Assembly: GCA_022827625.1 (NCBI GenBank)
Contig: JAJEIE010000033.1
Span: 1 to 64,000, forward strand
Reading direction: 5' to 3'
DNA length: 64,000 nt
From: Candidatus Poribacteria bacterium
Lineage (GTDB): Bacteria; Poribacteria; WGA-4E; WGA-3G
In this document: in pieces, positions 9,585 to 37,446 of the stretch
Numbering within the stretch: the stretch's first letter is position 1
Layout: every line of letters begins with the position of its first letter
Position numbers and translations under genes: made by a program
The notes under the pieces: model-generated
Told to the model about the DNA's origin: nothing
The model's database searches: none
Seen by the model: only the letters and a program-made list of their open reading frames with translations

Positions 9585-10208
9585 ATGTCCGTTGCAACAG
9601 TCTTTTCAGCTACTATGGAAGATTATTCGGAGATGGGCAATACACAAGAATTAGATCGCGCGCAGGAACATGAACTTGTTTTGCGCTGCCAAAAGGGCGA
9701 TGTTGATGCAATGGGAACCCTCATTACGCGTTATCAACATTGGGTCTACAATATCGCTTACGGGATATTGGGGCATCACCAAGATGCAGAGGATGTCGCC
9801 CAAGATGCTTTCCTCTCCGTATGGGAAAATATCGGAAAATTCGAGTTCCGTTCCCAATTTTCTACATGGCTCTATCGGATCGTGAAAAACAAGTGTTTTA
9901 ATCATATTGATCAATACCAACGCCGGAAAACCGATCCGATGGAAATTGACGATTCACAACCGTGGGTCCCACTTGATTCGGCAACACCGGAAGACGAGGC
10001 GTTACGGTCAGAAGAAAAAGATATTGTGCATAAGGCACTCGCGAAACTCAAAGATAGTTATAGAGAGATACTCGTGCTAAGGGAGCTGCGAGAACTCTCT
10101 TATGAAGAAATATCCGAAATCCTCGGTTGTACGCTTGGACGGGTTAAATCTCGGTTACATGAAGCCCGAAAAGCACTCAAAACAGAACTGGAGCGAGTCG
10201 TGTGGTAG
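9585..10208 (+). CDS. ECF-type RNA polymerase sigma factor
   Basis: A 207-residue group 4 sigma factor. Region 2 occupies about residues 28-95 (TLITRYQHWVYNIAYGILG, DAEDVAQDAFLSVW, FSTWLYRIVKNKC) and region 4 about 145-198 (LREL-LSYEEISEILGCTLGRVKSRLHEAR). No region 3 is present, as expected for ECF factors. It heads a compact cluster with a zinc-finger anti-sigma gene 34 bases downstream and an RseB-like gene after that, an arrangement like rpoE-rseA-rseB, pointing to an envelope-stress or cell-surface signal. An AUG at 9585 after GGAGAAAAAGT was chosen as start. Confidence 0.93.
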   Translation: MSVATVFSATMEDYSEMGNTQELDRAQEHELVLRCQKGDVDAMGTLITRYQHWVYNIAYGILGHHQDAEDVAQDAFLSVWENIGKFEFRSQFSTWLYRIVKNKCFNHIDQYQRRKTDPMEIDDSQPWVPLDSATPEDEALRSEEKDIVHKALAKLKDSYREILVLRELRELSYEEISEILGCTLGRVKSRLHEARKALKTELERVVW

Positions 10209-10242
10209 TTATTTCCGCTTACCACTATCCTCGATTGAAGAT

Positions 10243-10992
10243 ATGAACCATCGTCAAATTCAAAACGCATTATCTGCTTATTTAGACGACGAATTAAGGG
10301 CGAGCGTGCGAAAGCAGGTCGAGGCACATCTCCATACCTGCGACGAATGTTCTGATATGCTCGCAGCGTTCCGAGAAAATAGTGCCAAAATCAGAGACTT
10401 CGTTCATCCCGCACCACCTATCAAGGAGATGGTGATGGCGAGGATACACGAACAACTCCAAGATGAATTGTCGGCATATTTAGACAATGAATTGGCACCG
10501 GATACGCGAACTCGGATTGCAGCACATCTCCATACCTGCGACGAATGTTCTGATATGCTCGCAGCATTTCAGCAGAATCGCGAACAGATCCGCGGACTTG
10601 AACATCGCGCCCCTGCTTCGATTCAGCACGCAGTCATGGCACAGATACGCCAAGGGGCAGCACAGGCTAACGTAGAAAAACCCACCCGCACGCTACGATT
10701 ACCAGATATTGGGGGTTGGTTATTGGATTTTGGACGCTGGTTCCTGCGTCCTGTTACTGCAGGCGCGACTGGTATCCTAACGCTCGCGATAGTCTTGGGA
10801 ACGCTCTATTTTTATCCCACAACTTCCCAATATGAAGAGACACTCGATTACTACTTTGGGCTTCACACGGAACAATTAACAGATAATCCATTGAGTCTAA
10901 ACGGCAGTATCGCGCAGCCTGAGGAATCTTCAGAACCGAATGGTGATACCGACCTGTTTCTTGACCTCCATATAGAGAATGTAGGACACTAA
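10243..10992 (+). CDS. Membrane anti-sigma factor with two zinc-finger modules
   Basis: A 249-residue protein that should bind and hold the sigma factor encoded just upstream. It has two copies of the zf-HC2 module: H29-x3-C33-x2-C36 and H95-x3-C99-x2-C102, each preceded by a LSAYLDDEL/LSAYLDNEL helix. A membrane helix spans about residues 171-191, leaving a short extracytoplasmic tail of around 58 residues. The two modules share an exact 44-base match (10324-10367 and 10522-10565), so the duplication is recent. The ATG at 10243 was chosen because the in-frame upstream extension overlaps the sigma gene. Most anti-sigma factors of this class have one module. Confidence 0.9.
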   Translation: MNHRQIQNALSAYLDDELRASVRKQVEAHLHTCDECSDMLAAFRENSAKIRDFVHPAPPIKEMVMARIHEQLQDELSAYLDNELAPDTRTRIAAHLHTCDECSDMLAAFQQNREQIRGLEHRAPASIQHAVMAQIRQGAAQANVEKPTRTLRLPDIGGWLLDFGRWFLRPVTAGATGILTLAIVLGTLYFYPTTSQYEETLDYYFGLHTEQLTDNPLSLNGSIAQPEESSEPNGDTDLFLDLHIENVGH

Positions 10993-14506: not shown

Positions 14507-14755
14507 AAACCCTCCTTATCGAACCCACATTTTACGCCATTTTCCCAACTTTCTGCAAAATTAGGCAACCTTTTCGACCTTAACTCGCGTCATATATATT
14601 ACAAAATGCCTCGTTTGGTGTTGAGAGATAGCAAGATTGTCGCCTTGAGGTCATTGCACAAATGTGTGCATTTGTCGTGAGTGTTTGCCCTATTTGGTAC
14701 AGGGTCTCCTAACTATTTGTCCCAAAACTTGCCTAATTTTACATTTAGCACACTT
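14507..14755. other. Gene-free intergenic stretch
   Basis: No ORF with coding character, RNA gene or clear promoter is seen between the two repeat clusters that follow the SDR gene. Confidence 0.55.
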
Positions 14756-14878: not shown

Positions 14879-14968
14879 GACACTATTTCAAATTGGCACA
14901 TAAATTGCAAGCAAATTGATTGAAGGTTAACATCGCAATTGACGCTACTAACAAAAGGAGTTGTTCAA

Positions 14969-16210
14969 ATGAAAAAACAATTGGGTCTAATAATATTGGT
15001 AGCGTTTCTGCTATTAAATTGGATAGCATTTACCGCTCACACAGCAGCACTCAAAATTGAAAAGACTTTGACCCAAGCAGACGGTTTGGCATCCAATACG
15101 GTGCTTACCATTTTTGAGGACAGCCACGGCGCGATGTGGTTCGGAACGACCGATGGTGTCACCCGTTATGATGGTGAGAATTTCCAAACCTTTACAACAG
15201 AAGATGGATTATCACGAAACACGATAGGGCTTATCTTTGAGGACCAGCAAGGGGACCTCTGGTTCGCGGACGGTATGCTCTCAAGTATTCTGGATAGAGG
15301 CAAACCCATGGATATGTCCCACATGGCAATGCCGTTGAGTGAGCTCGCTAAGGAGATTGACAACGAAATCCAGGCAGAAACAGTACCGCCTGCTCCATTA
15401 AAATTAAATGGCGTGAGTCGCTACGATGGACAGGCGTTTCGGATTTTTACGACAGATGACGGTCTCCTCCGCGATACTGTTAAGGACATATTTGAGGACA
15501 AAACGGGAACGCTTTGGTTGGCGACCTCTTCAGGTATGAATTACTACGATGGCGAAAAGTTCTATCATCTTATTATGCACGGTCCCATAGGCATGGATAT
15601 ATTACCCGACTGGTGGAGTCAGGTCACGGCAGTTGCCCAGGATACAGCAGGCAATTTTTGGTTCGGCAGTACCGCTGGAATTACCTACTATAATACCGAA
15701 ACGTCCCATTTCCGTCATTTTGCTGTTGATACGGATTTTGCTCCCTTTGAAGAGATGGCGAAGGCGAGAAGTGCAAACATTACAGATCTGCAGTTTGATG
15801 CCAAGGAAAACCTCTGGATGAGTCGAGAAGGCGGGGGTGAGGAGAGGAGTGGCCTTCGTAGATACGACGGGAAAGAGTTGGTCACTTTTCCACTCAGTGA
15901 AGCACTTCCGATGAATAGTGTTGACAATATCATGTTGGATAGCAGCGGCAATCTCTGGTTTACAGGTGTTAAGAATCTCCCATCGCAGCTGAATGAAACT
16001 GAGGACAGTATCAGCATGGTTTTTCCTGAGGTTGAATCCGGTGTAAGTGTATACAACGGCAAAGCCTTCCAAAACTTTAACACAGATGACGGGCTGCCGA
16101 GCAATCGGGTCTGGTCGGTATTTGAGGATAGCAGCGGCGATCTCTGGTTCGCTACGGATGCCGGTGCTGCAGTTGGGGTGTATCTCCCCTCCCAGCACTC
16201 CGGTAATTGA
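14969..16210 (+). CDS. Exported Reg_prop beta-propeller protein
   Basis: A 413-residue protein with an N-terminal signal peptide or membrane anchor (about residues 4-28) followed by repeated two-component-regulator propeller (Reg_prop) units: GAMWFGTTDGVTRYDGE, LFEDQQGDLWFADG-type segments and further copies ending with GDLWFATDAGAAVG. In hybrid two-component systems these blades form the periplasmic sensor; here no kinase or output domain follows, so this is a free-standing propeller, possibly ligand-binding or structural. The ATG at 14969 has AAAGGAG eight bases upstream, and is preferred over an in-frame start at 14939. Confidence 0.85.
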   Translation: MKKQLGLIILVAFLLLNWIAFTAHTAALKIEKTLTQADGLASNTVLTIFEDSHGAMWFGTTDGVTRYDGENFQTFTTEDGLSRNTIGLIFEDQQGDLWFADGMLSSILDRGKPMDMSHMAMPLSELAKEIDNEIQAETVPPAPLKLNGVSRYDGQAFRIFTTDDGLLRDTVKDIFEDKTGTLWLATSSGMNYYDGEKFYHLIMHGPIGMDILPDWWSQVTAVAQDTAGNFWFGSTAGITYYNTETSHFRHFAVDTDFAPFEEMAKARSANITDLQFDAKENLWMSREGGGEERSGLRRYDGKELVTFPLSEALPMNSVDNIMLDSSGNLWFTGVKNLPSQLNETEDSISMVFPEVESGVSVYNGKAFQNFNTDDGLPSNRVWSVFEDSSGDLWFATDAGAAVGVYLPSQHSGN

Positions 16211-16237: not shown

Positions 16238-16310
16238 GTAGCGCAAACTGTTAGTTTGCGTCCCTCGCTTGCGCGGGTAGGCGGATCGCAATCTAACAGA
16301 TTTGCGGCGT
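16238..16310. repeat. GTAG-headed palindrome pair
   Basis: GTAG (16238-16241) precedes CGCAAACT-GTT-AGTTTGCG (16242-16260), and a second, inverted relative CGCAATCT-AAC-AGATTTGCG occupies about 16287-16306. The stem is shared with the element at 14440-14463. It lies between the Reg_prop stop and the YCF48-type lipoprotein start, and the open frame it contributes upstream of 16358 is not regarded as coding. Confidence 0.6.
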
Positions 16311-16357
16311 ACTCGCCCAGATGCGACGTGCATCATGCTACTAAAGGAGATGAAACA

Positions 16358-19300
16358 ATGAAAAAGAGACTTCAACACATCACTCGCTATTCCATAGCGA
16401 TTCTCTTAGGAACCGCCTTGCTGCTAACCGGTTGTGTCGAAAAGGAAATTACGCGTCAAGCGGATTGGGAAACACATTTTATGGACATCCACTTTGCGGA
16501 TGCCAAACACGGCTGGATTGTCGGGCATCAGGGATGGATTCTCCATACGGCGGACGGCGGTATCAGTTGGGAAAAACAGACGGTCAATACAACTGAAGAT
16601 TTTAAATCGGTATATTTCACAAATCTCCGTAACGGGTGGGCAGTTGGCGACAAGGGGTTAATCGCGATTACGGACGACGGCGGACGGCACTGGACAGTCC
16701 AAAAAACTGAGGTCTCTATGCTATTTTTGGATGTCTTCTTCTACGACTCAAACATCGGTTGGATTGCTGGACAGGATGGGATATTCTACACAGAAAACGG
16801 GGGAAAAACATGGCAGCATCAGGACGTGAGTGAGTTTCAAATTAAGGGCGTTTTCTTTGTAGATAAAGCGCGCGGATGGACCGTCGGTGACTATGACCGA
16901 ATTTTTGCTACCACTGACAGCAGTGATACCTGGCGGAGACAAGAGAACCTTGTGAAGACAGATACCGCAACGACGGTCTGCAACCTCCACACCGTATTTT
17001 TTATCAATCCTTATACGGGATGGTGCGGCGGCACAGATGGCACGGTTTTCCATACCGACAACGGTGGCACAGAATGGAGATCCCAGGCGACTCGGCTGCC
17101 GCCAATTTATGGACACGTCGCTCCGATTGTGAACAACTTCCATTTCCTCAGTGAGGATTATGGGATCCTCGTTGCGCAAGGTGGATTTATTAACCGTACA
17201 GAGGACGGCGGAGACAATTGGCAACTCGTAGAAACCCCAACAAAAAACGATCTGATGGGGGTTCAGTTCACAAGCCGTAAACAGGCATGGGCAGTCGGTA
17301 TGAATGGAACGCTCTTGCACTCGGAAGATGGCGGCATAACGTGGGAAATGAAAAGTGGCACGACAGCGGATGCGCTACAGAGTGTGGCGTTCGCGGACGC
17401 AAACCGTGCGGTCGCCGTCGGAGAGAAAGGCACAATCACAACAAGTGATGACAGTGGTAAAACGTGGACCAATATTGAGATGGACACGTGGCATCGTATC
17501 CGGAATCTATCTTTCGCTACCGATGCGGAGGGCTGGGCAGTTGGAGATGGCGGACTCATCCTTCATACCACCGATGCCGGTCAGACGTGGGAACGGCAAA
17601 CCAGCGGGTGGTGGTATACACTGAACGCCCTTCATTTTATTAATCCTCAGAAAGGCTGGATCGTTGGGGATTTAGGCACTGTACTTCACACTGCGGACGG
17701 CGGCAAGACGTGGGTCCAACAAACACCGCGCTACTTCCACGAAATGATTAAAGGCATCTTTTTCCTCAATGAAAAAGAAGGCTGGGTGGTCGGATGGCCG
17801 GGTATTATTTTCCATACAACAGATAGTGGTCGGACGTGGAAACGGCAGAACAGCAAGAGTTACAACGAACTCTACGCCGCTTACTTTATTGATAGACATA
17901 CCGGCTGGGTCGTCGGACAACTCGGTGAGATTCTACACACACTCGACGGTGGAAAAACGTGGAAATTTCAACGAAGCGGGACACAGGCAAATCTAAACAA
18001 GGTCTATTTTGCCGATGAAAACTACGGGTTAATCGTTGGAGATGAAGGGGTCATTTTGACCACTATCAATGGGGGTGTGACGTGGGAGTTACAGAACAGT
18101 GGCACATCTAACGATCTCTATAGCTTCTCGCTCTCGCCTGAAGGCATCCTCGCTGTCGGTGAAAACGGTGTTGCGATGCGTTATGCTGTGGATACAGAGA
18201 AGTTTATCGTTGAATTGCCACCATCTGCCGAAGAAGTCGCAGCTGAATTAGAAGCACAACTCGTAGAAACTGTTGAATATCACTGGGAGATTATCCGATC
18301 AGGCACCTCGCAGACCTATTTCACCGATACTTACTTCCTGTCGGCGTTGCACGGATGGACGGTCGGACACGGGGGTGCTATTTTAAATACAACAGATGGC
18401 GGCAAAACGTGGCACCCACAACAGAGTGGCGTAACAGAAGACCTGCAGCGTATCGTCTTCATAGATGAGAAACACGGCTGGATCGCGGGCAATCGGGTAC
18501 TCCTGCGGACCGAAAATGGCGGTGAGACCTGGGAAGTAACCCGTGAAGGGTTAGAAACTATCTACTATATCAGTGCGATGCACTTCATTAATCCGCAAAT
18601 GGGTTGGATCGGTGCGAATGATGCGCAAACGCTTCACACAAGCGATGGTGGTAAAACCTTCCGATTGCAGAAAATAGGGCTTGGGAGTCCGCCTATTGAC
18701 GACTTACACTTTATCAACACCAAAGAGGGTTGGGCAATAACGGCACACAGGATGAGAGGCACAGGCTACATTCTGCATACCGTAGATGGTGGTGATCACT
18801 GGGAGATCCAAGCCAGAACGAATCAGCATGGTGTCGGTGTTCATTTTATGAATGAGACCTCCGGTTGGGTGGTCCTGGTGAATGGGGCATCACTTCTCAC
18901 AACAGATGGCGGCACGACGTGGCAACAGACCCTGTCCACAATGTCCGCTGGTACGCGACTCCACGCCGTGAAATTCCGTAATCATACGGAAGCTTGGGGC
19001 ATCGCGAATGACAAGAAACTTCTCACGACGCACAACCAAGGCAAGCATTGGGAAGTAATAAATGACTCGCTCGGTAACCAACGCGCAACCCGTGGTGATG
19101 AAAGCTGGGTGCACCAAATGGCAAAAGAACAATTTCTCCCTGCCTTCAACGTGACAAACGCCCATATCCTTGCGAATGGACAGGCGTGGATAGTCGGTGC
19201 GATGATGTCAGCACCCCGCACTACCGATGACTTTGTTATCGATGCCGACGAGCAAGTGCAAGATACGATAGGCCAGATTTATCGCACAACAGATTTCGGA

Positions 19301-20185
19301 AAAAACTGGTACCACCAACTCGGCAAACATCGGAATACCCTCCGTGATGTGTTATTTCTCGATGAGCAACACGGTTGGATTGCCGGAGATAACGGGGACT
19401 TATTTTCAACTGAAGATGGCGGACAGACGTGGCAACGTTTAGAGAGTGGGACGGCGCAACGTATTGTGGATGTCCACTTCACCAGTCTCGAACCGAAATG
19501 GGGATGGCTGATGCTCCGTGACGCAACACTACTTTACACGCAAGACGGATCGCAATGGACGGCGCAAAACAAGCAAGAACAACTCCCACGTGAGAACTCG
19601 TTTGCCCTAAATGATGTCGCATTCGGTAACTTTTCTGAAGGCTGGGCTGTCGGAGAGCGTGGCGATATTATACACAATCCAGACGGAGGGACGACTTGGG
19701 CACGGCAGCGCACCTCCACCAGTAAACCTCTCACGAGCGTTGATATGAAATTCGCACCCCTCGGCTGGGCGGTTGGCACAAATGGTGTAACCCAACGCAC
19801 CGTCAACGGTGGCGAATATTGGAAGTTCCACGAAACCCATACCGGTTCCGATCTGAAGGCAGTGTCGTTCATCACGAAACGAAAGGGATGGGCAGCGGGA
19901 CGTGGCGGAATTATACTCTCTACCACTGATGGCGGTTTCACGTGGACATCACAAGCAAGTGGTATCAATCAGACGCTTTACGATATTCTGGCACTCTCTG
20001 AACAGGAAATCTACGCCGTCGGTGCTTCTGGGACTATCATTCACTCGACAGATGGCGGGGAAACTTGGGAACAAGAGCATACTGGGATTAATGACAACCT
20101 GTATGCAGTCACGCGGGTCAAAGGCAGCGAGACGCTTTGGGCGGTTGGACAGTTGGGTGTCGTGCTGCGTTGTCCTAAACGTTGA
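16358..20185 (+). CDS. Giant YCF48/BNR-repeat lipoprotein
   Basis: A 1275-residue exported lipoprotein: lipobox LLTGC with Cys26, then a repeated blade of about 43-45 residues with the form GW-x-VG-x-x-G-x-I-L-x-T-x-D-G-G-x-T-W. By eye there are about 28 blades, 14 before and 14 after a Glu/Ala-rich linker at roughly residues 640-665 (around 18215-18270). The family is YCF48/Hcf136-like, known in cyanobacteria and plastids as a seven-bladed photosystem II assembly factor. Bacteria outside those groups use similar blades in secreted proteins of unknown role. ATG 16358 follows AAAGGAGA; an upstream in-frame extension lies in a repeat. Nothing suggests photosynthesis. Confidence 0.88.
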   Translation: MKKRLQHITRYSIAILLGTALLLTGCVEKEITRQADWETHFMDIHFADAKHGWIVGHQGWILHTADGGISWEKQTVNTTEDFKSVYFTNLRNGWAVGDKGLIAITDDGGRHWTVQKTEVSMLFLDVFFYDSNIGWIAGQDGIFYTENGGKTWQHQDVSEFQIKGVFFVDKARGWTVGDYDRIFATTDSSDTWRRQENLVKTDTATTVCNLHTVFFINPYTGWCGGTDGTVFHTDNGGTEWRSQATRLPPIYGHVAPIVNNFHFLSEDYGILVAQGGFINRTEDGGDNWQLVETPTKNDLMGVQFTSRKQAWAVGMNGTLLHSEDGGITWEMKSGTTADALQSVAFADANRAVAVGEKGTITTSDDSGKTWTNIEMDTWHRIRNLSFATDAEGWAVGDGGLILHTTDAGQTWERQTSGWWYTLNALHFINPQKGWIVGDLGTVLHTADGGKTWVQQTPRYFHEMIKGIFFLNEKEGWVVGWPGIIFHTTDSGRTWKRQNSKSYNELYAAYFIDRHTGWVVGQLGEILHTLDGGKTWKFQRSGTQANLNKVYFADENYGLIVGDEGVILTTINGGVTWELQNSGTSNDLYSFSLSPEGILAVGENGVAMRYAVDTEKFIVELPPSAEEVAAELEAQLVETVEYHWEIIRSGTSQTYFTDTYFLSALHGWTVGHGGAILNTTDGGKTWHPQQSGVTEDLQRIVFIDEKHGWIAGNRVLLRTENGGETWEVTREGLETIYYISAMHFINPQMGWIGANDAQTLHTSDGGKTFRLQKIGLGSPPIDDLHFINTKEGWAITAHRMRGTGYILHTVDGGDHWEIQARTNQHGVGVHFMNETSGWVVLVNGASLLTTDGGTTWQQTLSTMSAGTRLHAVKFRNHTEAWGIANDKKLLTTHNQGKHWEVINDSLGNQRATRGDESWVHQMAKEQFLPAFNVTNAHILANGQAWIVGAMMSAPRTTDDFVIDADEQVQDTIGQIYRTTDFGKNWYHQLGKHRNTLRDVLFLDEQHGWIAGDNGDLFSTEDGGQTWQRLESGTAQRIVDVHFTSLEPKWGWLMLRDATLLYTQDGSQWTAQNKQEQLPRENSFALNDVAFGNFSEGWAVGERGDIIHNPDGGTTWARQRTSTSKPLTSVDMKFAPLGWAVGTNGVTQRTVNGGEYWKFHETHTGSDLKAVSFITKRKGWAAGRGGIILSTTDGGFTWTSQASGINQTLYDILALSEQEIYAVGASGTIIHSTDGGETWEQEHTGINDNLYAVTRVKGSETLWAVGQLGVVLRCPKR

Positions 20186-22090: not shown

Positions 22091-22391
22091 ACGAATCCTC
22101 CTTAGTAATAACATTATTCCAATCCCCACTCCCTGCGGAGTTCTGTTTTCGGTTTGTTCAATACCATTATACCTTTATACCACAAAATACCCTTTAAATG
22201 CCAATCTTTTTCCTGTTAAGGCACTCCTATCAGAGATAGCATCCACCATCTCCATGTCCTCAATTTTCCACTTTATGCACCCTTTCCGTTCTCAAACCGG
22301 ATCATTAATTATAAAAGGGACACATGCCCCTTCACCAAAAGCGATAGCGACCTGACAGCCAACAGTCAATAGCCATTAAAGGGAGTTCAAC
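22091..22391. other. Intergenic region between divergent genes
   Basis: About 300 bases separate the phosphoesterase and the ABC-2 permease. Apart from the conserved block at 22274-22320 no repeat or gene is seen. Confidence 0.5.
22274..22320 (+). promoter_or_regulatory. Shared upstream block (copy 1)
   Basis: TATGCACCCTTTCC at 22274-22287, then TCAAA and finally TTAATTATAAAAG reaching about 22317 are found again at 25049-25093 in the same order and similar spacing. This copy lies about 75 bases before the ABC permease gene, the other about 150 bases before the sigma-propeller gene. It may be a common regulator or alternative sigma factor site, or a degenerate repeat. Confidence 0.35.
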
Positions 22392-23792
22392 ATGTTAATG
22401 ACGATGATTCAAAAAGAGATTATGCATCACATCCTGAGTGTCCGGTTCGTCGCGCTCCTTTTGATGTGTCTCCTTCTCGTTCCGCTGACGCTTTCTACAA
22501 ATTACCGAAATTATCGCCAGAATTTAGTGGATTACCAAGAAGCCGTCAAACTCGCAAACATTGAAGAGACTACGATGAACCCAGGGATGCCACTCGATCC
22601 AGAACTCGAAGTTTCCAAACTTTTCCTCAAGCCGACCCCTTTGAGCGTCTTCGCAAATGGATTGGCAGATGCATTGCCGAGTTATCTTGGTATGACACGC
22701 AATGGAATTATACAAGGTGCACCCGCCTTGGTGTCCTCTCTCTCCCATCTGTTAGGACATCTCGATTTTCTGTTCGTCGTTGGTACCGTTTTTAGTCTAC
22801 TCGCGCTACTGTTTACGTTCGATGCGGTTGCCGGGGAACGGGAAGCGGGCACCCTTCGGATCACCTTAGCGAATTCCGTGCCGCGCGACCTATTCTTATG
22901 GAGCAAATTGATTGGCGGATACGTGGTATTTGTCGTTCCGTTCTTGGTGTCGTTGCTGTTCGGCTTACTGATACTTGTCTGGCAAGGGTTCCCTCTCGGC
23001 GAACCTGAAATTTTTCCGAGAGTCCTCGGTTTAATCCTCATTTCATTGCTCTACATTGGTGTCTTTTTTGCAATCGGCACAGTGATTTCCACCTACTTAG
23101 ACAATTCCAAGACAGCACTTATCGTTGCCTTTACCGTCTGGGTGTTTGCCGTGCTAATTACACCACGCGTTGGGTTCCTTGCTGCCAAATTTATCGCACC
23201 CACACGGACTTCACAGAGCGTCTATATGGAAAAAACAGCCATGCGAGACGATTTCAACGCAGTACTCAAAGAGGAAGAACACAAAATGGTCATGGAAGTA
23301 CCCACGAATGAAAAGGGACACAGAGTCATAAGCGGGGAGATTTCCAAAAAAATTAGTGAACGTATGAAACCCCTTGAAGAGGAATATAGATCGCAATTCC
23401 AGAACCATGCTAACAAATTGGATCGGAATTACAAACGTGAAACGGAACGGCAAGAACAGGTGGGACAGATGCTTTCTCGACTCACGCCGACATCTTCTTT
23501 AATTTATATCACGACAAACCTAACGCAGACCGGAAAGGCAAAAAGAAGCACCTATTTTCAAACGGGTGAGCACTATTATGAGATGCTCCATACAGATTTG
23601 TTCAGTAAAATTATAGATTATACGCATAGCAGACAATACAGACCCGTCAAAATTACACAACCTCCCTCTTGGGAGAAAACGGACTTAAGAGAAACGCTCC
23701 GTCAATCAGCAGTGGATGTGATGTTGCTCTGCTTCTTTGCAATCATATTGACAACCGTTGCATTTCTAAAATTCTTCCGTTCCGATATTTGA
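22392..23792 (+). CDS. ABC-2 type transporter permease
   Basis: A 466-residue inner-membrane protein with one N-terminal helix (about residues 18-36), a long extracytoplasmic or soluble loop, a block of five helices between about 130 and 265 and a final helix near 440-458. The GEREAGTLRITLANSVPR segment after the second helix is the signature of ABC-2 permeases such as NosY/GldF-like proteins. A second charged loop (about 275-380) is strongly helical. No ATP-binding partner lies within the window's neighbouring genes, so this permease is an orphan locally. Substrate unknown; DUF3526-type permeases of similar shape are a possible alternative label. Confidence 0.82.
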   Translation: MLMTMIQKEIMHHILSVRFVALLLMCLLLVPLTLSTNYRNYRQNLVDYQEAVKLANIEETTMNPGMPLDPELEVSKLFLKPTPLSVFANGLADALPSYLGMTRNGIIQGAPALVSSLSHLLGHLDFLFVVGTVFSLLALLFTFDAVAGEREAGTLRITLANSVPRDLFLWSKLIGGYVVFVVPFLVSLLFGLLILVWQGFPLGEPEIFPRVLGLILISLLYIGVFFAIGTVISTYLDNSKTALIVAFTVWVFAVLITPRVGFLAAKFIAPTRTSQSVYMEKTAMRDDFNAVLKEEEHKMVMEVPTNEKGHRVISGEISKKISERMKPLEEEYRSQFQNHANKLDRNYKRETERQEQVGQMLSRLTPTSSLIYITTNLTQTGKAKRSTYFQTGEHYYEMLHTDLFSKIIDYTHSRQYRPVKITQPPSWEKTDLRETLRQSAVDVMLLCFFAIILTTVAFLKFFRSDI

Positions 23793-23939: not shown

Positions 23940-24944
23940 ATGAAACGCATTTTTCGCGAGGGAGAAGTTCTCGTAAGACTTCCACTCTTCGCAACTTTAG
24001 GACTCGCTATCCTTTTGTGGGGAGGCACCTATGCATATACACAAAGTTCCGAAACTGGATCGTCGCATACACGCATAAAAAGTAAATCCGTTGAATTCAA
24101 CCCGACAGTGCTATCCAGTCATAAAAGGTATACCGGTCCCCAAAATGCGCAGGAATTGATGAAAGCGTTAGATGAGGATTACAATAAGGGACTGCTAAAA
24201 AGACAGCCAGAGACCAAAGTGATTATATCCGATGGCAGCCTCGTGATTCGCAACGGAGAGATACTGGAACGGCCAAAAACCACGACTTATAGCAGTGACC
24301 TCACAATAAGTGAAATAGATGCAAGGTATCCACGGGCGGAATGGCTTCAGCTGCTTTTGGATAAAGGGGTCACCATAGATAACTCCGACGAGTATGCATC
24401 TTTGCTATCAAAGCGTTACATTTTGGCACTCTTTGAAGACAATCCAGATTTGCAGCAGTCAAGGATTCACGGTATTTCACCAACAGATGATTGGGAAACT
24501 TATAAAGTCGCTTACATCAATAAGTTGGTAAACGATCACACCAAGATCCAAAAAGCTGCAAAACAGATTGAACATAGTAAGGAACAAGTCGAACGTGCCA
24601 AAGCCCAACTCGAAAGGGGCACCATACAACTTGAACGTGCTAATGTCCAGCTTGAGCATAGAAAAAAACAGGTCGAACGCGCTATCGAACGCAGTAAGGA
24701 ATCAATGGCGCACGCCATGGCTCAACTTGAGCATAGCATAGAACAGGTCAAAGGTGCCAAGGAAGTGTTGAATTCGCAGCAGCTTGAGCATATTAGGAAG
24801 CAACTTGAGCACGCAAAGAAACAGATTGAACGCGCACAAGAGGCTTTAGAACGCCCTGAAGAACCGGTCCCTCCTCAGAAACCGATCTCTCCTCAGGAGC
24901 GAAACCAGAATATAAGAAAGAAGCCGCTGCATCCTTCTTTATAG
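23940..24944 (+). CDS. Membrane-anchored heptad-repeat protein, uncharacterised
   Basis: A 334-residue protein not assigned to a known family. A single hydrophobic helix lies at about residues 13-33. A middle part of mixed composition has no recognised motif. Residues of about 205-300 are a long amphipathic helix made of seven-residue units (VERAKAQLERGTIQLERANV, QLEH-KKQVER), predicted as coiled coil. The tail is Pro-rich (EEPVPPQKPISPQER). GTAG-containing repeat DNA and then the sigma-propeller gene follow. AAAGGAG precedes the ATG. It may be an envelope scaffold or a regulator of the adjacent membrane sigma factor, but there is no direct evidence. Confidence 0.7.
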   Translation: MKRIFREGEVLVRLPLFATLGLAILLWGGTYAYTQSSETGSSHTRIKSKSVEFNPTVLSSHKRYTGPQNAQELMKALDEDYNKGLLKRQPETKVIISDGSLVIRNGEILERPKTTTYSSDLTISEIDARYPRAEWLQLLLDKGVTIDNSDEYASLLSKRYILALFEDNPDLQQSRIHGISPTDDWETYKVAYINKLVNDHTKIQKAAKQIEHSKEQVERAKAQLERGTIQLERANVQLEHRKKQVERAIERSKESMAHAMAQLEHSIEQVKGAKEVLNSQQLEHIRKQLEHAKKQIERAQEALERPEEPVPPQKPISPQERNQNIRKKPLHPSL

Positions 24945-25048: not shown

Positions 25049-25093
25049 TATGCACCCTTTCCACCTCAAAATAGTATCTTTAATTATAAAAGC
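25049..25093 (+). promoter_or_regulatory. Shared upstream block (copy 2)
   Basis: The second copy of the block described at 22274-22320: TATGCACCCTTTCC at 25049-25062, a TCAAA, and TTTAATTATAAAAG ending at 25093. It precedes the sigma-propeller gene. Confidence 0.35.
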
Positions 25094-25226: not shown

Positions 25227-25240
25227 TACGGAGTACTCTG

Positions 25241-28228
25241 ATGGAAAGAGAAAACGACGTTCAATTGATTCGTAAAATTTTATCAGGCAGCGATGAGGCA
25301 TTTAGGGTTTTAGTCCAAAAGCACCAAAAGAATATTCACGCGCTTGCGTGGCGGAAAGTCGGTGATTTCCACATTGCTGAGGAGATTACGCAAGACACTT
25401 TCCTCCAAGTCTATAAGAACCTGACGCAGCTAAAGAATCCGAACCAGTTTTCTGGATGGATTTATGTCATTGCAAATCGACTTTGCCTGAAATGGCTTCA
25501 AAAGAATAGATTCGTACCCCAATCATTGGAAGACACGCCTATGGAAGAAATCGAGGAATCCTCTTATACACATCATGTATTTGAACAGCGGCGGAGAGAG
25601 GTTACCGAGGATCGTCAGGAACTCGTCAAAAAACTTCTGGCAAAACTCCCGGAGAGTGAACGCACGGTCGTGACGCTCCACTATCTCGGCGAAATGACAG
25701 CAAAAGAGATTGGAAGATACTTAGGTGTATCAGTAAACACGATTAAAAGTCGACTCCGTCGGGGTCGAAAGCGTTTACAGGAACAGCAGGTAGAACTACT
25801 GGTTCGCGAAACCCTCGGAAGTATCCCATTCCCCGCCCAAGTAACTGAGCGTATCATGCGGCAGGTTGCCGATATGAAACCGATACCGCCTCCCGTCGGC
25901 AAACCCTTGCTACCGTGGGCGGCTTTTGGAACTGCCGCTGTTTTGGTTATATTGTTGCTCGGTGCGACCAACCAATATCTCGCGCGTTTTCAGAAGCCTT
26001 ACAGTTTTGAAGCACAATCCGAACCGACTATTGAAATTATTGACACACCTATCGTTCTCAATATTGCCGCAAAACCAGCGGTACGAAGCCGAGTTGGACA
26101 GGCTGCTGCCGGTAAAAGCAGCGGCACCGGCACACAAATTTCTACAACTACCACAACATCCGCTATATTGGAGGATTCCACTAAGTTTTCTACTTCGCAG
26201 TGGACGCGGGGAAGCGCGCCGCCAGGCGGGCACGTAAGCGATATCTTCGCTACATCGGACGGGACCGTCTATGCTGTTGCCCCGACAGGCATATATAGAT
26301 TAAGAACAGATGCAACCGCGTGGACACGCATCAACACGGATATTCCAATTGGTCCATCGCTAATGCCGATGGCAGAACGTGATGGCACCCTTTACATCGT
26401 ATCTACCGATGAAATATTTACGTCGGGGGACAAGGGTGAAACCTGGCATACGATGGGTCCCAGACCAAAGGGAGATGCTGTCGGTCTCATCATCACAGAT
26501 GAAATCCGTTCTACGATGTATCTCGCACTTAGAGATGAGGGGATTTATCGATCTACAGACGGTGGAACGCAATGGCACTTATTTAATGAAGGATTAGCAA
26601 ACAAAAGGATTGCTACAGTCGCTGCTGTGGAAAAAACAGTGTTCGCGGGTACAGCGCGCGGTCTCTATCGTCTCGATTCAGGCACTTGGAAAAAGCTTCC
26701 GGTGGAAACATCAAGAGCCATTTACTCCTTGGCAGTGTTTGAGAATAACCTCTATGTTGGAACAGGTCCCCATCTGTTAGGATTCACGCCAATAACGGTA
26801 GCACAAGAAGTGCCAAAAATTGAGTCGTATACACTCAAGGTTTTCCATTCGGCTGACTTGGGAGCATCGTGGGTGGAAATAACACCGAGTTATAAAACTT
26901 ACTACAAGCCGGCGATACCCTCTGGCATCATGGTTTCGGCTGTTGGTGAAACGCTTTTAGCGTCAACTGCCCACCACCGATATCGTTCAACAGATAACGG
27001 ACACACCTGGACGGAACTTCCAGGGGATACGGATATGTTGATGATTAATAGCCTGCCAGTTGTGGCCGTAAACGAGACGACATTTTACGAAGCCGGTCCC
27101 TTCGGCGCGCATCGCACAACTGATGGTGGAAAGCGGTGGCGCCTACTTATGGATGGGATGGTGGGAACAAGACTAAAAGATTTAGTTGCGTTCAACAACA
27201 AATTATACGCACATACGGGTTATGCGGTGTATCAATCAACCGACGAAGGTGTATCTTGGAAAAAACTCCCAATTGCCGAGGGGGTTTTTGGAAAGGTGAC
27301 GACAATTACAACTGAATCATCAAAACCGTACAGTGCCCGTGTCGCTCACTCCTTTGATTCAAAATTGATAGCTGATGACAACAATCTTTACTTTCTTTCA
27401 CATATAGATATAGATAGCAGCTTGCGAAACAACTTGCGTATTTTCGGCTTATCTACGGACGGCAATATACTCAGTCCAGTTCAAAGCACACCGACTTCTG
27501 ATGATGAAGCATTACGCCGTAAGTTACGGACAAGTAACGAGGCAGCAAAAGAGACGCACTTATCTGAAGGTTCCGAGAAAGCGCATCAATCAATCGTGTC
27601 AATCCTTCCACCGCCTGCACGTAGAAAGGACAGCAAAGCCACAACCATTGTAGTTTGTAGTGATGTGCTCTATGCTGAGTACGGACGTCGGCTTTTTAAG
27701 AGGAGACTTGGTGATCTGGAATGGACAAACACAGGATTAACAGACAGAAGTCAACGGTCTTATGAAGACTTAAGTCAGGAACTCAAATTAGCGGTTTTGG
27801 GAGAAACCATCTACGTCGGGAAACGCGACGGTAAACTATTCCAGTCGCTTGATGGAGGGGGCAGCTGGAGAGATGTTACGCCCAACCTACCACTTCACTT
27901 TACCTGTTTCAAGGAGATAATCTTCGCAGGTTCAACAGTTTATGTCGCAACAGACGAAGGGGTATTGAGTTCAGAAACCGGCGTACACTGGCGCGTGCTA
28001 ACCGATAGTGCTGGAGGGCATCCTATCATAGACAGATTTGCTGTGGAGGGTACTACGATCTATGGTGTTGGCGATAGTGGTGCCTATCGCTTAGATACGA
28101 GTAATCAATGGAAACAAGTTTCTTCAGAAGCACTCGGTGAAACTGTTGCGCTCGCTGTCGTTAACGATAAATTGTATAGTGCTATCAAAGATCGCGGGAT
28201 ATTTCACATCTCGCTTGCAGAAGAATAA
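25241..28228 (+). CDS. ECF sigma factor fused to membrane helix and BNR-type propeller
   Basis: A 995-residue one-chain signalling protein. Residues of about 10-90 are sigma region 2 (FRVLVQKHQKNIHALAWRKV, AEEITQDTFLQVYKNL, FSGWIYVIANRLC) and about 125-182 region 4 (LPESERTVVTLHYLGEMTAK, EIGRYLGVSVNTIKSRLRRG). A single membrane helix lies at 224-246, preceded by a Pro-rich linker. The remaining 700 residues, presumably periplasmic, form a BNR/sortilin-like propeller with blades such as YRSTDNGHTW, HRTTDGGKRW and YQSTDEGVSW. The frame is open throughout, so the fusion is not an assembly join of two frames. Membrane-bound ECF factors with C-terminal repeat domains have been described in Planctomycetes; here a propeller could sense an external ligand and control the tethered factor. 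Confidence 0.9.
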   Translation: MERENDVQLIRKILSGSDEAFRVLVQKHQKNIHALAWRKVGDFHIAEEITQDTFLQVYKNLTQLKNPNQFSGWIYVIANRLCLKWLQKNRFVPQSLEDTPMEEIEESSYTHHVFEQRRREVTEDRQELVKKLLAKLPESERTVVTLHYLGEMTAKEIGRYLGVSVNTIKSRLRRGRKRLQEQQVELLVRETLGSIPFPAQVTERIMRQVADMKPIPPPVGKPLLPWAAFGTAAVLVILLLGATNQYLARFQKPYSFEAQSEPTIEIIDTPIVLNIAAKPAVRSRVGQAAAGKSSGTGTQISTTTTTSAILEDSTKFSTSQWTRGSAPPGGHVSDIFATSDGTVYAVAPTGIYRLRTDATAWTRINTDIPIGPSLMPMAERDGTLYIVSTDEIFTSGDKGETWHTMGPRPKGDAVGLIITDEIRSTMYLALRDEGIYRSTDGGTQWHLFNEGLANKRIATVAAVEKTVFAGTARGLYRLDSGTWKKLPVETSRAIYSLAVFENNLYVGTGPHLLGFTPITVAQEVPKIESYTLKVFHSADLGASWVEITPSYKTYYKPAIPSGIMVSAVGETLLASTAHHRYRSTDNGHTWTELPGDTDMLMINSLPVVAVNETTFYEAGPFGAHRTTDGGKRWRLLMDGMVGTRLKDLVAFNNKLYAHTGYAVYQSTDEGVSWKKLPIAEGVFGKVTTITTESSKPYSARVAHSFDSKLIADDNNLYFLSHIDIDSSLRNNLRIFGLSTDGNILSPVQSTPTSDDEALRRKLRTSNEAAKETHLSEGSEKAHQSIVSILPPPARRKDSKATTIVVCSDVLYAEYGRRLFKRRLGDLEWTNTGLTDRSQRSYEDLSQELKLAVLGETIYVGKRDGKLFQSLDGGGSWRDVTPNLPLHFTCFKEIIFAGSTVYVATDEGVLSSETGVHWRVLTDSAGGHPIIDRFAVEGTTIYGVGDSGAYRLDTSNQWKQVSSEALGETVALAVVNDKLYSAIKDRGIFHISLAEE

Positions 28229-33156: not shown

Positions 33157-36100
33157 GTGAAGCACCCCACCTTTTTCTTCTACACACTAACGATTGCTGC
33201 CATTCTATGTGTATCAACTCCCTTGTATTTACAAACCGTTGCTGCAGATCCGTACAGCACGCAGATAGCATTACCCGAAGGCGCAAAAGCACGGTTGGGT
33301 AAGGGTAGTATCAACGCGATAGCGTATTCACCCGATGGTACCCGCCTCGCCGTTTCAAGCACCCTTGGCATCTGGATGTATGACACCCACAGCGGAGAAG
33401 AATTGGAAGTGTTCGTCGCACGGAACGCGGATGCTGCCATCATGCAAACTGCGCCTGTGAGCATAGGAGACATCGCCTTCAGTCCCGATGGACAAACGCT
33501 CGCAAGTGCAGGGTACGACAGCGTTGTCCGTTTATGGGATGCTGTAACCGGGGAACAGAAAGCAATATTCACTGGACACGAGCGGAGCGCCGTTCAGATC
33601 GCCTTCAGTCCAGACGGACAAACCCTCGCAAGCGGCGGTGGATATTGGGACCCAACCGTGCGTCTGTGGGATATTAGTAGCGGCCGGCAAAATGCCATAT
33701 TCACGGGGCATGAGTCGGCTATCACCAGTCTTGCGTTCAGTCCAGATGGACAGACACTCGCAAGTGCAAGCAACGCCAATGAAGTTAAAACGATCCGTTT
33801 GTGGAATACTGCCAGTAGACAGCAAAAAGCAATACTCACCTCACACAATGCCCCTGTATATAGTCTTACGTTCAGTCCAGACAGTCGTATCCTCATAAGT
33901 GGGGAGGGATATGACCGTAGAACTGTCCGCCTATGGGATGTCAGCAGTCTTCAGAAGAAGCAGACACTCCCAGGACATCAAGGAAATGTCTATAGCGTCG
34001 TTTTCAGTCCAGATGGACAGACACTCGCAAGCGGCGATTCCGATGGCCACGTGTTTCTGTGGGATACAGTCAGTTGGGAACAGAAAGCTTCCATCGCGCA
34101 CACAACTGATGTCCAACACATCGCCTTCAGCCCAGACGGTAGGACACTCGCCATCGCTAACTCGGCGGAGGTGCATTTATGGGATGTCGTTAAAGGGGTT
34201 CCTATAAGACAACTTACCAAGCGTCTCGATGCACCGCTGTCAGTCGCCTTTAGTCCGGATGGACACACCCTTGCCAGCGGCAGCCGTGATGGGAGCGTTC
34301 AGCTCTGGAATGTTCGCAAGCAGCAACTCATAACCGCCTTGCCGGCACCACCACTCCTCAGATATGGATCCTGGGGATGGCATCCGTGGCGCGTCGAGAG
34401 TATAGCGTTCAGTCCGAACGGTAAAATCCTCGCAACTGTCGGGTATGAGCAGATATATCTATGGGAGCGCGTTCCACAACAATCGGGGTTACAAACCTCT
34501 TCCGCTATGTTATGGTGCCAAAAAGCGATACTTACTGGGCACACGAGCAATATTTATAGCATTGCCTTCAGTCCGGATGGACATCTAATCGCCAGTGGAA
34601 GTGCTGACCGAACGGTACGGCTTTTTGATGTTGAGAGCGGTCAGCATAAACGCACTTTCATAGGACATACAGGGACTATTTTAAGCGTTGTGTTCAGTCC
34701 CGATGGCAAAGCCCTCGCAAGTGGTGGTTACGACGACACTGTCCGATTGTGGAACATTGTTACAGGTGAAAATACAAAAATTCTGGCTACAGATACCTGG
34801 GTTATGGACGTTGCATTCAGTCCTGACGGGCAAACGCTCGCAAGCAGTGGGAGTTGGCGAGACAAAACTGTGATGTTGTGGGATGTTAGCACGGGGACCC
34901 GTAAAACGACCTTCGCACATACAGCGGAGCTGGGATCAATCGTCTTCAGTCCGGGTGGGCATACCCTCGCGGGCGGCGGTTCCGACGGCACTATACTGCT
35001 ATGGGATATGCAGACGAAAACACGGAAACGCATACACCGCGGGCATGCCGAATCAATTACAAGCATGGCATTCAGTCCGGATGGGCGCACATTCGCGAGC
35101 GGAAGTTATGACAGCACTGTGGTACTCTGGGAATTTGAACCGGCGGTAGAGGTAATACCAGCGACATACGTAGATAAGGGTGCAGCGGTGAAGGTCCAAG
35201 ATAGAGACGTTGTTGCGCCACCCCTCAGACAAGATGTGACACAATGGCATCTGCCTGAAGGGGCGAAAGCGCGCTTTGGAAAGGGCGGAATATCTGGAAA
35301 CGTGGTCTTCTCACCCGATGGTGCACAGTTGGTCGTTCCAACGTCGATCGGCATCTGGATATACGACGCCGACACAAACAATGCATTAAAACTTTACACC
35401 GAACATTCTCATAGGATCGGACGGGTTGCATTCAGTCCAGATGGCAAGACGCTTGTCGGTAGTCGGGACTGGGGAGATACCAAGGTCTATTTGTGGGACG
35501 CTCACACGGGGCAGCACAAAACTACCCTCGCTGGACATGCGGATGACGTGACGAACGTTGCTTTTAGTCCCGATGGTAACACAATCATCAGTAGCAGTGA
35601 AGATGGATCTCTATTCTTATGGGATGCTGTTACGGGTATGCCTTTCGCCACGTTCGGGGGGACTGAAGACGGTTGGATGAAGGCTCTCGCTATCAGTCCC
35701 GATGGCAAAACGCTCGCAAGTGGCGGATGGGCGGATCCCTTGCAGTTATGGAATATTAACACTCGGCAAACCGTTGCCATCCTTGAAAGTCATAGATTTT
35801 CTGTCGATGCAGTCGCTTTTAGCCCGGACGGTACCACCCTCGCCAGTGGGGGTTACGACGCGACAATCCGTTTGTGGGATGTTGAAAGCCACACCCTCAA
35901 AGCCGAATTCAGCGGTCCAACACGTCGCGTCTGGAGCCTCGCTTTTAGTCCTGACGGGCAAACCCTCGCCAGTAGCAGTGATGACGGCACTGTATTTTTG
36001 TGGGATGTTGAAAGCCACACCCTCAAAGCCACGCTCACGGGCCATACCCGTCCAACCACGAGTCTCGCCTTCAGTCCGAATGGCTTTACACTCGCCAGTG

Positions 36101-37446
36101 CAAGTCAAGACGGCACCATCCGACTCTGGGATGGAATAAAGGGTGACCATCGAGCGACTATTGCTGGGCATGCTGTGGAGGTCTCCAGTCTCGCGTTCAG
36201 TCCTGACGGGCAAAGCCTCGCAACCAGCGGTTGGGATAGCCTTGTGCAATTATGGGATATAGCAGATCCTGCACCGCTCAAAGCGATTCTGACAGGACAT
36301 TCAGAAGGCGTTGAGTCCATCGCGTTCAGTCCGGATGGGCAAACCCTTGCGAGTGGCGGCAGCAGTGGTTGGGCAGACAATAAAGTGTTCTTATGGGACA
36401 TAACGGGGACAGCCACACAGCAATCATCGACACTCGAATGCCAATTTCCTGTGGCAAGCAATCACGCAGCTGCTTACTTACATCATATTTCAACGGTGAG
36501 TGCGGTTGCCTTTAGTCCAGACGGCACCCGCCTCGCAGTCAGTGAAGAATATGAAAATAACAGAGTCATTCTGTTAGATGTTGCGACGGGTATGTCCGAA
36601 GCAGTGCTTGCTATCCCACAGACGAACAACTCAGACGGTGTCGCCTGCATTGCGTTCAGTCCAGACGGAAAAACACTCGCAGTTGGGTATTACAGGAACC
36701 TACGACTGTGGGATGTTCCCAGTGCAACACTCACTGCGACACTTGAAGGACATCGCCATTGGATTTCCGATGTTGCCTTCAGTCCAGATGGAGATATACT
36801 TGTCAGCAGTAGTTACCGGGACCCAGTCCGGGTATGGGATGTTGCCAGTGCTACAGAAATTGCAGTACTCAATGGACATACAAATGGTGCTCAGAGTGTC
36901 GCCTTCAGTCCGAGTGGCAAAACGCTTGCAATTGGCGGCACTTATAGAGACGGTATAGTGCGACTGTGGGATGTTCCCAACGCCAGGTATAAAACCACAC
37001 TCGTAGGACATAGGGATGGCGTAAACGACCTTGCGTTCAGTCCTGATGGTCGTACGCTCGCAAGTGGGGGCGGAGACGGAACTGTTCTCTTGTGGACCCT
37101 ACCCACTGAATCTGAAACGATCGGTGCACCACCCCAAAATTTACGAACCGCTAAGCAGACAGCTTTGCTGCAGAATTACCCGAATCCGTTCAACCCGGAG
37201 ACGTGGATACCTTACCAGCTGACAGAACCCGCTGAAGTTACTGTGCATATCTATACAGCAAAGGGAACCTTGATTCGCACGTTAACTGTTGGACACCGAC
37301 CTGCTGGTATCCACACACATCAAGGAGATGCCGTCCATTGGGATGGGAAGAACGAGTTCGGTGAATCTGTCGCAAGCGGTGTCTATTTCTACACACTGTC
37401 TGCAGGAAATTTCATAGCAACCCAGAAGATGTTGATTCAGAAATAG
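33157..37446 (+). CDS. Giant exported WD40 protein with FlgD-like C-terminal sorting domain
   Basis: A 1429-residue exported protein. A signal peptide (about residues 8-28) is followed by two long blocks that each begin LPEGAKAR-GKG and GIW-YD, with the repeated blade FSPDGQTLASGG...VRLWD. I count 14 FSPDG-type blades per block, 28 in total, consistent with four seven-bladed propellers; the block boundary is near residue 660-690 (about 35200). The last 85 residues (QNYPNPFNPETWIPYQL ... SGVYFYTLSAG) are a FlgD-Ig-like/type 9 secretion-like tail. The start is GTG with AGGAGGA upstream. Function unknown; such scaffolds often mediate protein-protein or cell-surface contacts. Confidence 0.9.
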   Translation: MKHPTFFFYTLTIAAILCVSTPLYLQTVAADPYSTQIALPEGAKARLGKGSINAIAYSPDGTRLAVSSTLGIWMYDTHSGEELEVFVARNADAAIMQTAPVSIGDIAFSPDGQTLASAGYDSVVRLWDAVTGEQKAIFTGHERSAVQIAFSPDGQTLASGGGYWDPTVRLWDISSGRQNAIFTGHESAITSLAFSPDGQTLASASNANEVKTIRLWNTASRQQKAILTSHNAPVYSLTFSPDSRILISGEGYDRRTVRLWDVSSLQKKQTLPGHQGNVYSVVFSPDGQTLASGDSDGHVFLWDTVSWEQKASIAHTTDVQHIAFSPDGRTLAIANSAEVHLWDVVKGVPIRQLTKRLDAPLSVAFSPDGHTLASGSRDGSVQLWNVRKQQLITALPAPPLLRYGSWGWHPWRVESIAFSPNGKILATVGYEQIYLWERVPQQSGLQTSSAMLWCQKAILTGHTSNIYSIAFSPDGHLIASGSADRTVRLFDVESGQHKRTFIGHTGTILSVVFSPDGKALASGGYDDTVRLWNIVTGENTKILATDTWVMDVAFSPDGQTLASSGSWRDKTVMLWDVSTGTRKTTFAHTAELGSIVFSPGGHTLAGGGSDGTILLWDMQTKTRKRIHRGHAESITSMAFSPDGRTFASGSYDSTVVLWEFEPAVEVIPATYVDKGAAVKVQDRDVVAPPLRQDVTQWHLPEGAKARFGKGGISGNVVFSPDGAQLVVPTSIGIWIYDADTNNALKLYTEHSHRIGRVAFSPDGKTLVGSRDWGDTKVYLWDAHTGQHKTTLAGHADDVTNVAFSPDGNTIISSSEDGSLFLWDAVTGMPFATFGGTEDGWMKALAISPDGKTLASGGWADPLQLWNINTRQTVAILESHRFSVDAVAFSPDGTTLASGGYDATIRLWDVESHTLKAEFSGPTRRVWSLAFSPDGQTLASSSDDGTVFLWDVESHTLKATLTGHTRPTTSLAFSPNGFTLASASQDGTIRLWDGIKGDHRATIAGHAVEVSSLAFSPDGQSLATSGWDSLVQLWDIADPAPLKAILTGHSEGVESIAFSPDGQTLASGGSSGWADNKVFLWDITGTATQQSSTLECQFPVASNHAAAYLHHISTVSAVAFSPDGTRLAVSEEYENNRVILLDVATGMSEAVLAIPQTNNSDGVACIAFSPDGKTLAVGYYRNLRLWDVPSATLTATLEGHRHWISDVAFSPDGDILVSSSYRDPVRVWDVASATEIAVLNGHTNGAQSVAFSPSGKTLAIGGTYRDGIVRLWDVPNARYKTTLVGHRDGVNDLAFSPDGRTLASGGGDGTVLLWTLPTESETIGAPPQNLRTAKQTALLQNYPNPFNPETWIPYQLTEPAEVTVHIYTAKGTLIRTLTVGHRPAGIHTHQGDAVHWDGKNEFGESVASGVYFYTLSAGNFIATQKMLIQK

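Follow-up and report, generated by a model that had tools for sequence, protein, structure and literature searches.

The question raised by this locus is whether a single gene joins an ECF sigma factor, a membrane anchor and a sensor in one chain and, if so, how such a protein would pass a signal on to transcription. The window, by which the whole 64,000-nt stretch analysed is meant, comes from a Candidatus Poribacteria MAG, a draft in 41 contigs hereafter called the source genome. The frame at 25241-28228 runs on the plus strand from ATG to stop without interruption over 995 residues, and a search for a long rival frame on the opposite strand found none. A first-pass annotation, made from the sequence alone, had read in this frame ECF regions 2 and 4, a single helix and a BNR-like propeller, and the ORF, Pfam and hydropathy results agree with that layout. 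A sensor-like domain and a sigma domain do share one chain, as the annotation had held. The features are collected in Table 1.

A Pfam search of the protein finds Sigma70_r2 at residues 24-90 (5.9e-12), Sigma70_r4_2 at residues 128-179 (3.3e-17) and Sortilin-Vps10, PSII_BNR and BNR matches from residue 391 onward, the helix lying between the two parts. The protein scores 99 bits against the NCBIfam model TIGR02937, whose cut-off is 42.9, and its sigma domain finds SigW among the PDB profiles (5wuq, E 4e-29). Regions 2 and 4 are present and regions 1.1 and 3 absent, which is the domain composition of ECF (group 4) factors.

The only strongly hydrophobic segment of the protein comprises residues 223-241 (Kyte-Doolittle mean 2.19), the AlphaFold2 model places a helix at residues 227-243, and among 54 relatives the net charge is +1.7 ahead of the helix and -2.1 past it, so that the segment behaves as the membrane helix it had been taken for. 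A type II (N-in) topology is supported by this charge bias, and the C-terminus would lie outside, in the periplasm, because of the same bias and because the sigma domain must be cytoplasmic. The model, built from 19 sequences with a mean pLDDT of 65, shows sigma helices and propeller strands from about residue 320 to the C-terminus; its confidence is low over residues 183-318 including the helix, with pLDDT values below 50 in the pre-TM segment and the stalk. The conserved stalk and the low-complexity linker that separate the helix from the propeller are absent from the first-pass annotation.

The BNR-type repeats named there are present, with seven Asp-box motifs in the protein, although they do not form one propeller: fold searches point to a two-propeller unit resembling GH74. 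The best PDB matches are GH74 xyloglucanases (Foldseek, 2cn3, E 1.4e-23), the VIA-align Z score against GH74 is about 25 over 560-580 residues, the sequence profile matches 2cn3 at 2e-14, and residues 319-995 have the predicted tandem seven-bladed propeller fold of that family. The xyloglucanases share this fold at only 16-19% identity, the likeness being one of fold, and the profile alignment is unreliable at one or both positions of the catalytic aspartate pair. Further structural matches of the propeller in the PDB include BT4663, a heparin/heparan-sulphate sensor, and its relative BT4673. In BT4663, from Bacteroides, a periplasmic propeller serves as a glycan sensor, whereas the output domain of the Poribacterial protein is a sigma factor.

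Table 1 Features of the sigma gene, its surroundings and a contrast locus in the window.
Feature	Coordinates	Strand	Evidence
Ordinary soluble ECF sigma factor, contrast case	9585..10208	+	Paralogue survey, hydropathy
ZAS (zf-HC2) anti-sigma factor of the 9585-10208 sigma, contrast case	10102..10992	+	zf-HC2 search
Predicted second promoter, same type as that of the sigma gene, ahead of the ABC-2 permease	22274..22306	+	Family motif scan
ABC-2 type permease, conserved upstream neighbour	22392..23792	+	Pfam PF12679 2e-31; synteny
Signal-anchor / heptad-repeat protein between permease and sigma	23940..24944	+	Synteny
Predicted ECF-type promoter of the sigma gene, TATGCACCCTTT-N14-TATCTTT, about 190 nt ahead of the start codon	25049..25081	+	Orthologue conservation, motif scan, genome pattern search (C25:25050-25080)
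Shine-Dalgarno GGAG	25230..25233	+	Sequence; kept in orthologues
Membrane-tethered ECF sigma factor, 995 aa	25241..28228	+	ORF, Pfam, relatives, module profile
ECF sigma regions 2 and 4, residues 10-182	25268..25786	+	Pfam; SigW profile match
Cytoplasmic pre-TM segment, residues 183-219, Pro-rich end	25787..25897	+	Kept across paralogues
Single transmembrane helix, residues about 223-243	25907..25969	+	Hydropathy, predicted helix, charge bias
Juxtamembrane periplasmic stalk, residues 242-286, conserved	25964..26098	+	Paralogue alignment
Low-complexity linker, residues 287-318	26099..26194	+	Poorly conserved; pLDDT < 50
Tandem beta-propeller, residues 319-995 (from about 315), GH74-like fold, predicted extracytoplasmic	26195..28225	+	Foldseek, VIA-align, sequence profile

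It was also overlooked in the first-pass annotation that the product belongs to a large family, defined here by a sigma domain, a helix and an RFQxPY...SExT stalk on one chain; the 995-aa protein matches the A2 profile at 25784-26104 with E 7e-52. Many independent MAGs of Poribacteria encode full-length relatives sharing 48-85% identity, and in the GTDB genome collection every one of the 22 strong relatives belongs to this phylum, the search being pattern-based and liable to miss distant relatives outside it. The source genome encodes about 24 close sigma paralogues, 18 of which are intact with the pre-TM segment, helix and stalk following the sigma domain. A profile of these three segments matches 68 of the 84 genomes of the phylum; copies per genome number 1-58 in the family to which the window belongs, 0-3 in two related families and zero elsewhere save for one marginal match. 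The sigma-helix-stalk module was found solely in Poribacteria, where one family has expanded it. The closed single-contig 6.66-Mb genome G081 contains 57 complete tethered sigma proteins (58 profile matches at most); each stalk match in it is preceded by a sigma domain, and every complete stalk protein is a sigma fusion. Twelve tethered sigma genes with WD40, BNR and RseB-like sensors mixed together lie within 50 kb at 1522860-1573145 of this genome (L107-L110), and a second tandem array of five is located at 3143390-3159279.

The stalk, with the consensus NQYLxRFQKPYSFEAxSEPTIEIIDAPIVLDxxxKPAVRNQxGR, has a mean identity of 60% among the 18 source-genome members and of 55% between members with different C-terminal classes, while the linker between sigma regions 2 and 4 reaches only 36-37%. 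As the stalk is so much better conserved than that linker between proteins with unrelated sensors, it has a function that does not depend on the sensor. Past the stalk, the chain of each member runs through a low-complexity linker into a domain drawn from many unrelated kinds, represented in the source genome by BNR propellers (8), Kelch, LRR, LRR with GHL15, thioredoxin-like, Big_5 with an esterase-like region and others. The classes in G081, assigned partly by ad hoc motif rules, are BNR (25), WD40 (14), RseB/LolA-like (4), LRR (4) and one-off kinds that include Kelch, M16-peptidase-like, PD40 and carboxypeptidase-regulatory-like. When 75 modules of the two genomes are placed on one tree, the class of the sensor switches at least 23 times, between the possible minimum of 7 and the shuffled mean of 38.8, and therefore sensors are inherited with the module and yet repeatedly exchanged.

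Two relatives depart from this layout. The BNR-propeller paralogue L039:11822-14578 on the minus strand has neither helix nor stalk, which probably leaves at least one propeller in the cytoplasm; this gene offers a natural test of the role of the anchor. At L050:4264-6666, also on the minus strand, a helix-less sigma factor of the same family is fused to an M61-type peptidase and adjoins a homologue of its peptidase part.

Sigma proteins whose C-terminal domain has a homologue encoded by a non-sigma gene no more than 3 kb away number 14 of 57 in G081 and 8 of 26 in the source genome, and permuted loci, with means of 2.8 and 1.0 respectively, never reached these counts. Examples are M16-like beside M16-like, Kelch beside Kelch and LRR-GHL15 beside LRR-GHL15. 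No domain-sharing gene was found within 3 kb of the BNR members, the 995-aa protein included, and the nearest BNR protein (16256-20185, 5 kb away) does not match its C-terminal domain at E 1e-6. The latter, a 1309-aa lipoprotein, follows a gene at 14939-16210 that has a copy of the promoter described below, with one change, ahead of it at 14562-14594, and a similar BNR lipoprotein is encoded directly 3' of a tethered sigma gene in G081. The window also encodes a 1429-aa WD40 protein (33157-37446) whose N-terminus is signal-like and whose C-terminal region is FlgD-like and of sorting type, its repeat kind being the one that forms the C-terminal domain of many of the relatives' tethered sigma factors.

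When the regions upstream of the orthologues are aligned, a single conserved block stands out, about 190 nt 5' of the start. A first promoter guess, GCAACCTTT / TATCTT, brought no clear gain over shuffles, whereas the corrected consensus did. The family element, obtained with a weight matrix seeded on the family's own upstream regions, reads TATGCA[CA]CCTTT-N13/14-[CT]GTC[AT], with the -10 box also given as CGTC[AT]. An AAC-like -35 and a CGT-like -10 box are the hallmark of ECF promoters (PMC8103513); the family consensus has both, and the predicted site of the 995-aa protein's own gene is a variant, GCACCC / GTATCTT. The element lies upstream of 18 of the 24 members in the source genome, and for two of those lacking it (L038, L046) an upstream gene close by has the element. 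The strict pattern has 28 matches in the whole source genome, against 3 each for the reversed and complemented controls.

The element was likewise detected upstream of 34 of 55 members in G081, compared with 10 of 270 control genes, and the top controls are mostly neighbours of sigma genes, namely ABC-2 permeases and M16-like, WD40 and LamG-like proteins. Its occurrence before such neighbours would give the pattern of a local regulon. Behind further copies of the promoter stand genes for signal-peptide-like LRR, Kelch and PD40-type proteins, as well as one for a heptad-like protein, the next gene encoding an ABC ATPase. Over 49 sigma/promoter pairs, -10 box distance correlates with sigma-domain distance at a Mantel rho of 0.39, as would be predicted were each sigma factor to recognise its own promoter. 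The flanks (30 nt upstream, 23 nt downstream) give a rho of 0.18 each, about half of that value; co-duplication of genes and promoters may explain part of the covariation but should affect the flanks too. The first-pass idea that an external signal is coupled to transcription is thus backed by ECF promoters ahead of the gene itself and of its neighbours and by the matching of sensors to neighbours across the family.

The reading that we consider probable is that of an autoregulated one-chain transmembrane ECF sigma factor, freed by proteolysis of its stalk and helix and transcribing its own gene and nearby envelope genes. The sigma domain would be kept at the inner membrane by the type II anchor with the propeller extending into the periplasm, where it would bind a ligand, with a glycan as the first guess from the fold. 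Binding would lead to cleavage of the chain, first within the conserved stalk and next within the helix, probably by an RseP homologue. The freed sigma domain would join RNA polymerase and transcribe its own gene from the promoter at 25049 together with nearby envelope genes having the same promoter type, including that of the ABC-2 permease. Other members would work through the same module with swapped sensors, often homologous to the product of the adjacent gene.

A classical anti-sigma partner was sought for this protein and none is encoded adjacent to it; genome-wide, zf-HC2 (ZAS) genes stand beside ordinary ECF factors and beside none of the tethered members. An RseP homologue is encoded in the source genome, as the proposed release would require, and its presence says little because RseP is near universal. 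Neither a protease cut site nor an anti-sigma element was identified. The closest experimentally tested precedent for the mechanism appears to be IutY of Pseudomonas putida, a sigma/anti-sigma fusion of ECF243 that likewise has an ECF sigma domain, a helix and a periplasmic domain on one chain. RseP cuts it after its periplasmic part has been shortened to about 50 residues (PMC5411451), a length beside which the conserved stalk of the tethered family, at about 45 residues, can be set. IutY is activated by release of the sigma domain, and by analogy regulated proteolysis of the tethered sigma factors is plausible. In contrast to the 995-aa protein, in which Pfam finds no FecR-type domain at E 0.01, IutY carries a terminal CSS-type anti-sigma domain and takes its signal from an outer-membrane receptor; the place of this domain is taken in the Poribacterial family by the 680-residue propeller or another domain.

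The actinobacterial groups ECF52, ECF53 and ECF48 (e.g. SCO4117, whose extracytoplasmic domain is carbohydrate-binding) similarly combine an ECF sigma domain with a C-terminal helix and an extracytoplasmic domain and are predicted to be freed by proteolysis. Unlike them, the 995-aa protein contains no zf-HC2 match in Pfam that would correspond to their zinc-finger (ZAS-like) segment, and its stalk and sensors differ. RsgI anti-sigma factors have exchanged sensor domains, e.g. carbohydrate-binding modules and glycosidase domains (PMC12203970), and the SigI/RsgI pairs of Clostridium thermocellum, with several paralogous sensors and in-membrane proteolysis by RseP, would be the closest precedent for a paralogous sensor set with exchanged substrate-binding C-terminal domains. 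In those pairs the sensor is on a separate anti-sigma factor, whereas the Poribacterial one is on the sigma factor itself, and the sigma group differs. Planctomycete ECF57 and related WD40-bearing ECF factors form expanded families with C-terminal repeat domains, a likeness in repeat-domain extension in general (PMC8999054, PMC8567305), whereas the stalk module was detected in Poribacteria only.

Several other explanations were weighed against release by proteolysis. The sigma factor might work while tethered, in the manner of CadC or ToxR, with the ligand altering conformation or dimer state and RNA polymerase recruited to the membrane. The conserved helix and stalk could relay a conformational signal, and neither a cleavage motif nor a dedicated protease gene was found beside the genes. 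Nevertheless, a sigma factor, as part of RNA polymerase, must reach many loci. The characterised membrane-fused ECF factor, IutY, moreover acts through proteolysis (PMC8999054), and we regard activity of the tethered factor as unlikely. It is also conceivable that the C-terminal domain is a surface protein that reports on export, the sigma factor being sequestered once the chain is inserted and assembled, and active when export stalls. Such a role would suit the resemblance of the C-terminal domains to next-door proteins, many with signal-like N-termini, and of the targets to exported repeat proteins and ABC permeases. The sensor-class changes on the 75-member tree fit many different inputs better, which makes this proposal improbable.

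Control by a partner, in which the heptad protein or the ABC-2 permease would act on the stalk, as a sensor or an anti-sigma factor, and the propeller would be a scaffold, takes up the first-pass suggestion of the heptad protein as a candidate partner. Six orthologous loci (L011, L012, L014, L017, L018, L019) keep the permease, heptad and sigma genes in this order, to which extent the suggestion holds, and the permease subfamily recurs beside several paralogues. However, other paralogues were searched for a permease nearby and several have none, and the heptad family has only 3 further members among the source-genome and G081 loci compared, being missing beside almost all other paralogues, which rules it out as a general partner of the family. 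At another locus it adjoins an ABC ATPase and therefore seems to go with the transporter instead, and we consider control by a partner very improbable. That the gene is an artefact of a chimeric contig or a spurious sigma/BNR fusion might be suspected of a draft assembly, but the identical full-length fusion recurs in many independent MAGs, the source genome has its 18 intact modules, and the 57 intact fusions of G081 are on a single contig; an assembly join is refuted by these, and the chance of an artefact is negligible.

Returning to the one-chain factor freed by proteolysis, its extension to the whole family would be a kind of plug-in kit, in which one sigma-helix-stalk cassette, duplicated to as many as about 57 copies per genome, would have been joined time and again to extracytoplasmic domains, often copied from a neighbour, so that it would sense what the target protein handles and switch on both the target and itself. 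This extension is put forward tentatively, its chances being a little short of even.

Two further sigma fusions of the source genome concern other partners. At L048:7058-8269 on the minus strand (C15:47060-48268), a soluble ECF sigma factor is fused to an FtsZ GTPase domain (PF00091, 1e-40), with an ordinary FtsZ gene elsewhere in the genome; about 16 genomes of the genus keep the fusion over its full length, with 73-78% identity, and there is a second version, mostly of 1350-1430 aa, at 55-60% identity. At L051:5071-6804 on the plus strand (C20), an ECF sigma factor is joined in one chain to an entire beta clamp of DNA polymerase III, with three DnaN domains, in addition to two stand-alone beta clamps in the genome.

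No description of the sigma factors of Poribacteria as such was found in the literature searched, an earlier mention being possible, and as far as that literature shows the family, with the 18 and 57 copies detailed here in two genomes, is previously undescribed. What is surprising is its scale, the conserved exchangeable module and the sensors that copy a neighbour. The WD40, LRR and TPR repeats of the phylum were earlier termed 'eukaryote-like' (PMC3909097), and such repeat domains are in part the C-terminal domains of sigma factors. If the plug-in reading is true, sigma factor, anti-sigma factor and receptor are merged in one chain on a scale absent from the literature searched. If the one-chain reading is right, the family offers an extensive natural collection of transmembrane sigma switches, each made of one protein, that share a release module and have exchangeable inputs. 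Such a collection could be used to study how compatibility is maintained between sensor exchange, promoter specificity and one juxtamembrane segment. The promoter class amounts to a predicted regulon that can be checked against metatranscriptomes, and the many outside sensors wired to gene expression would give a handle on what the uncultured sponge-associated Poribacteria sense.
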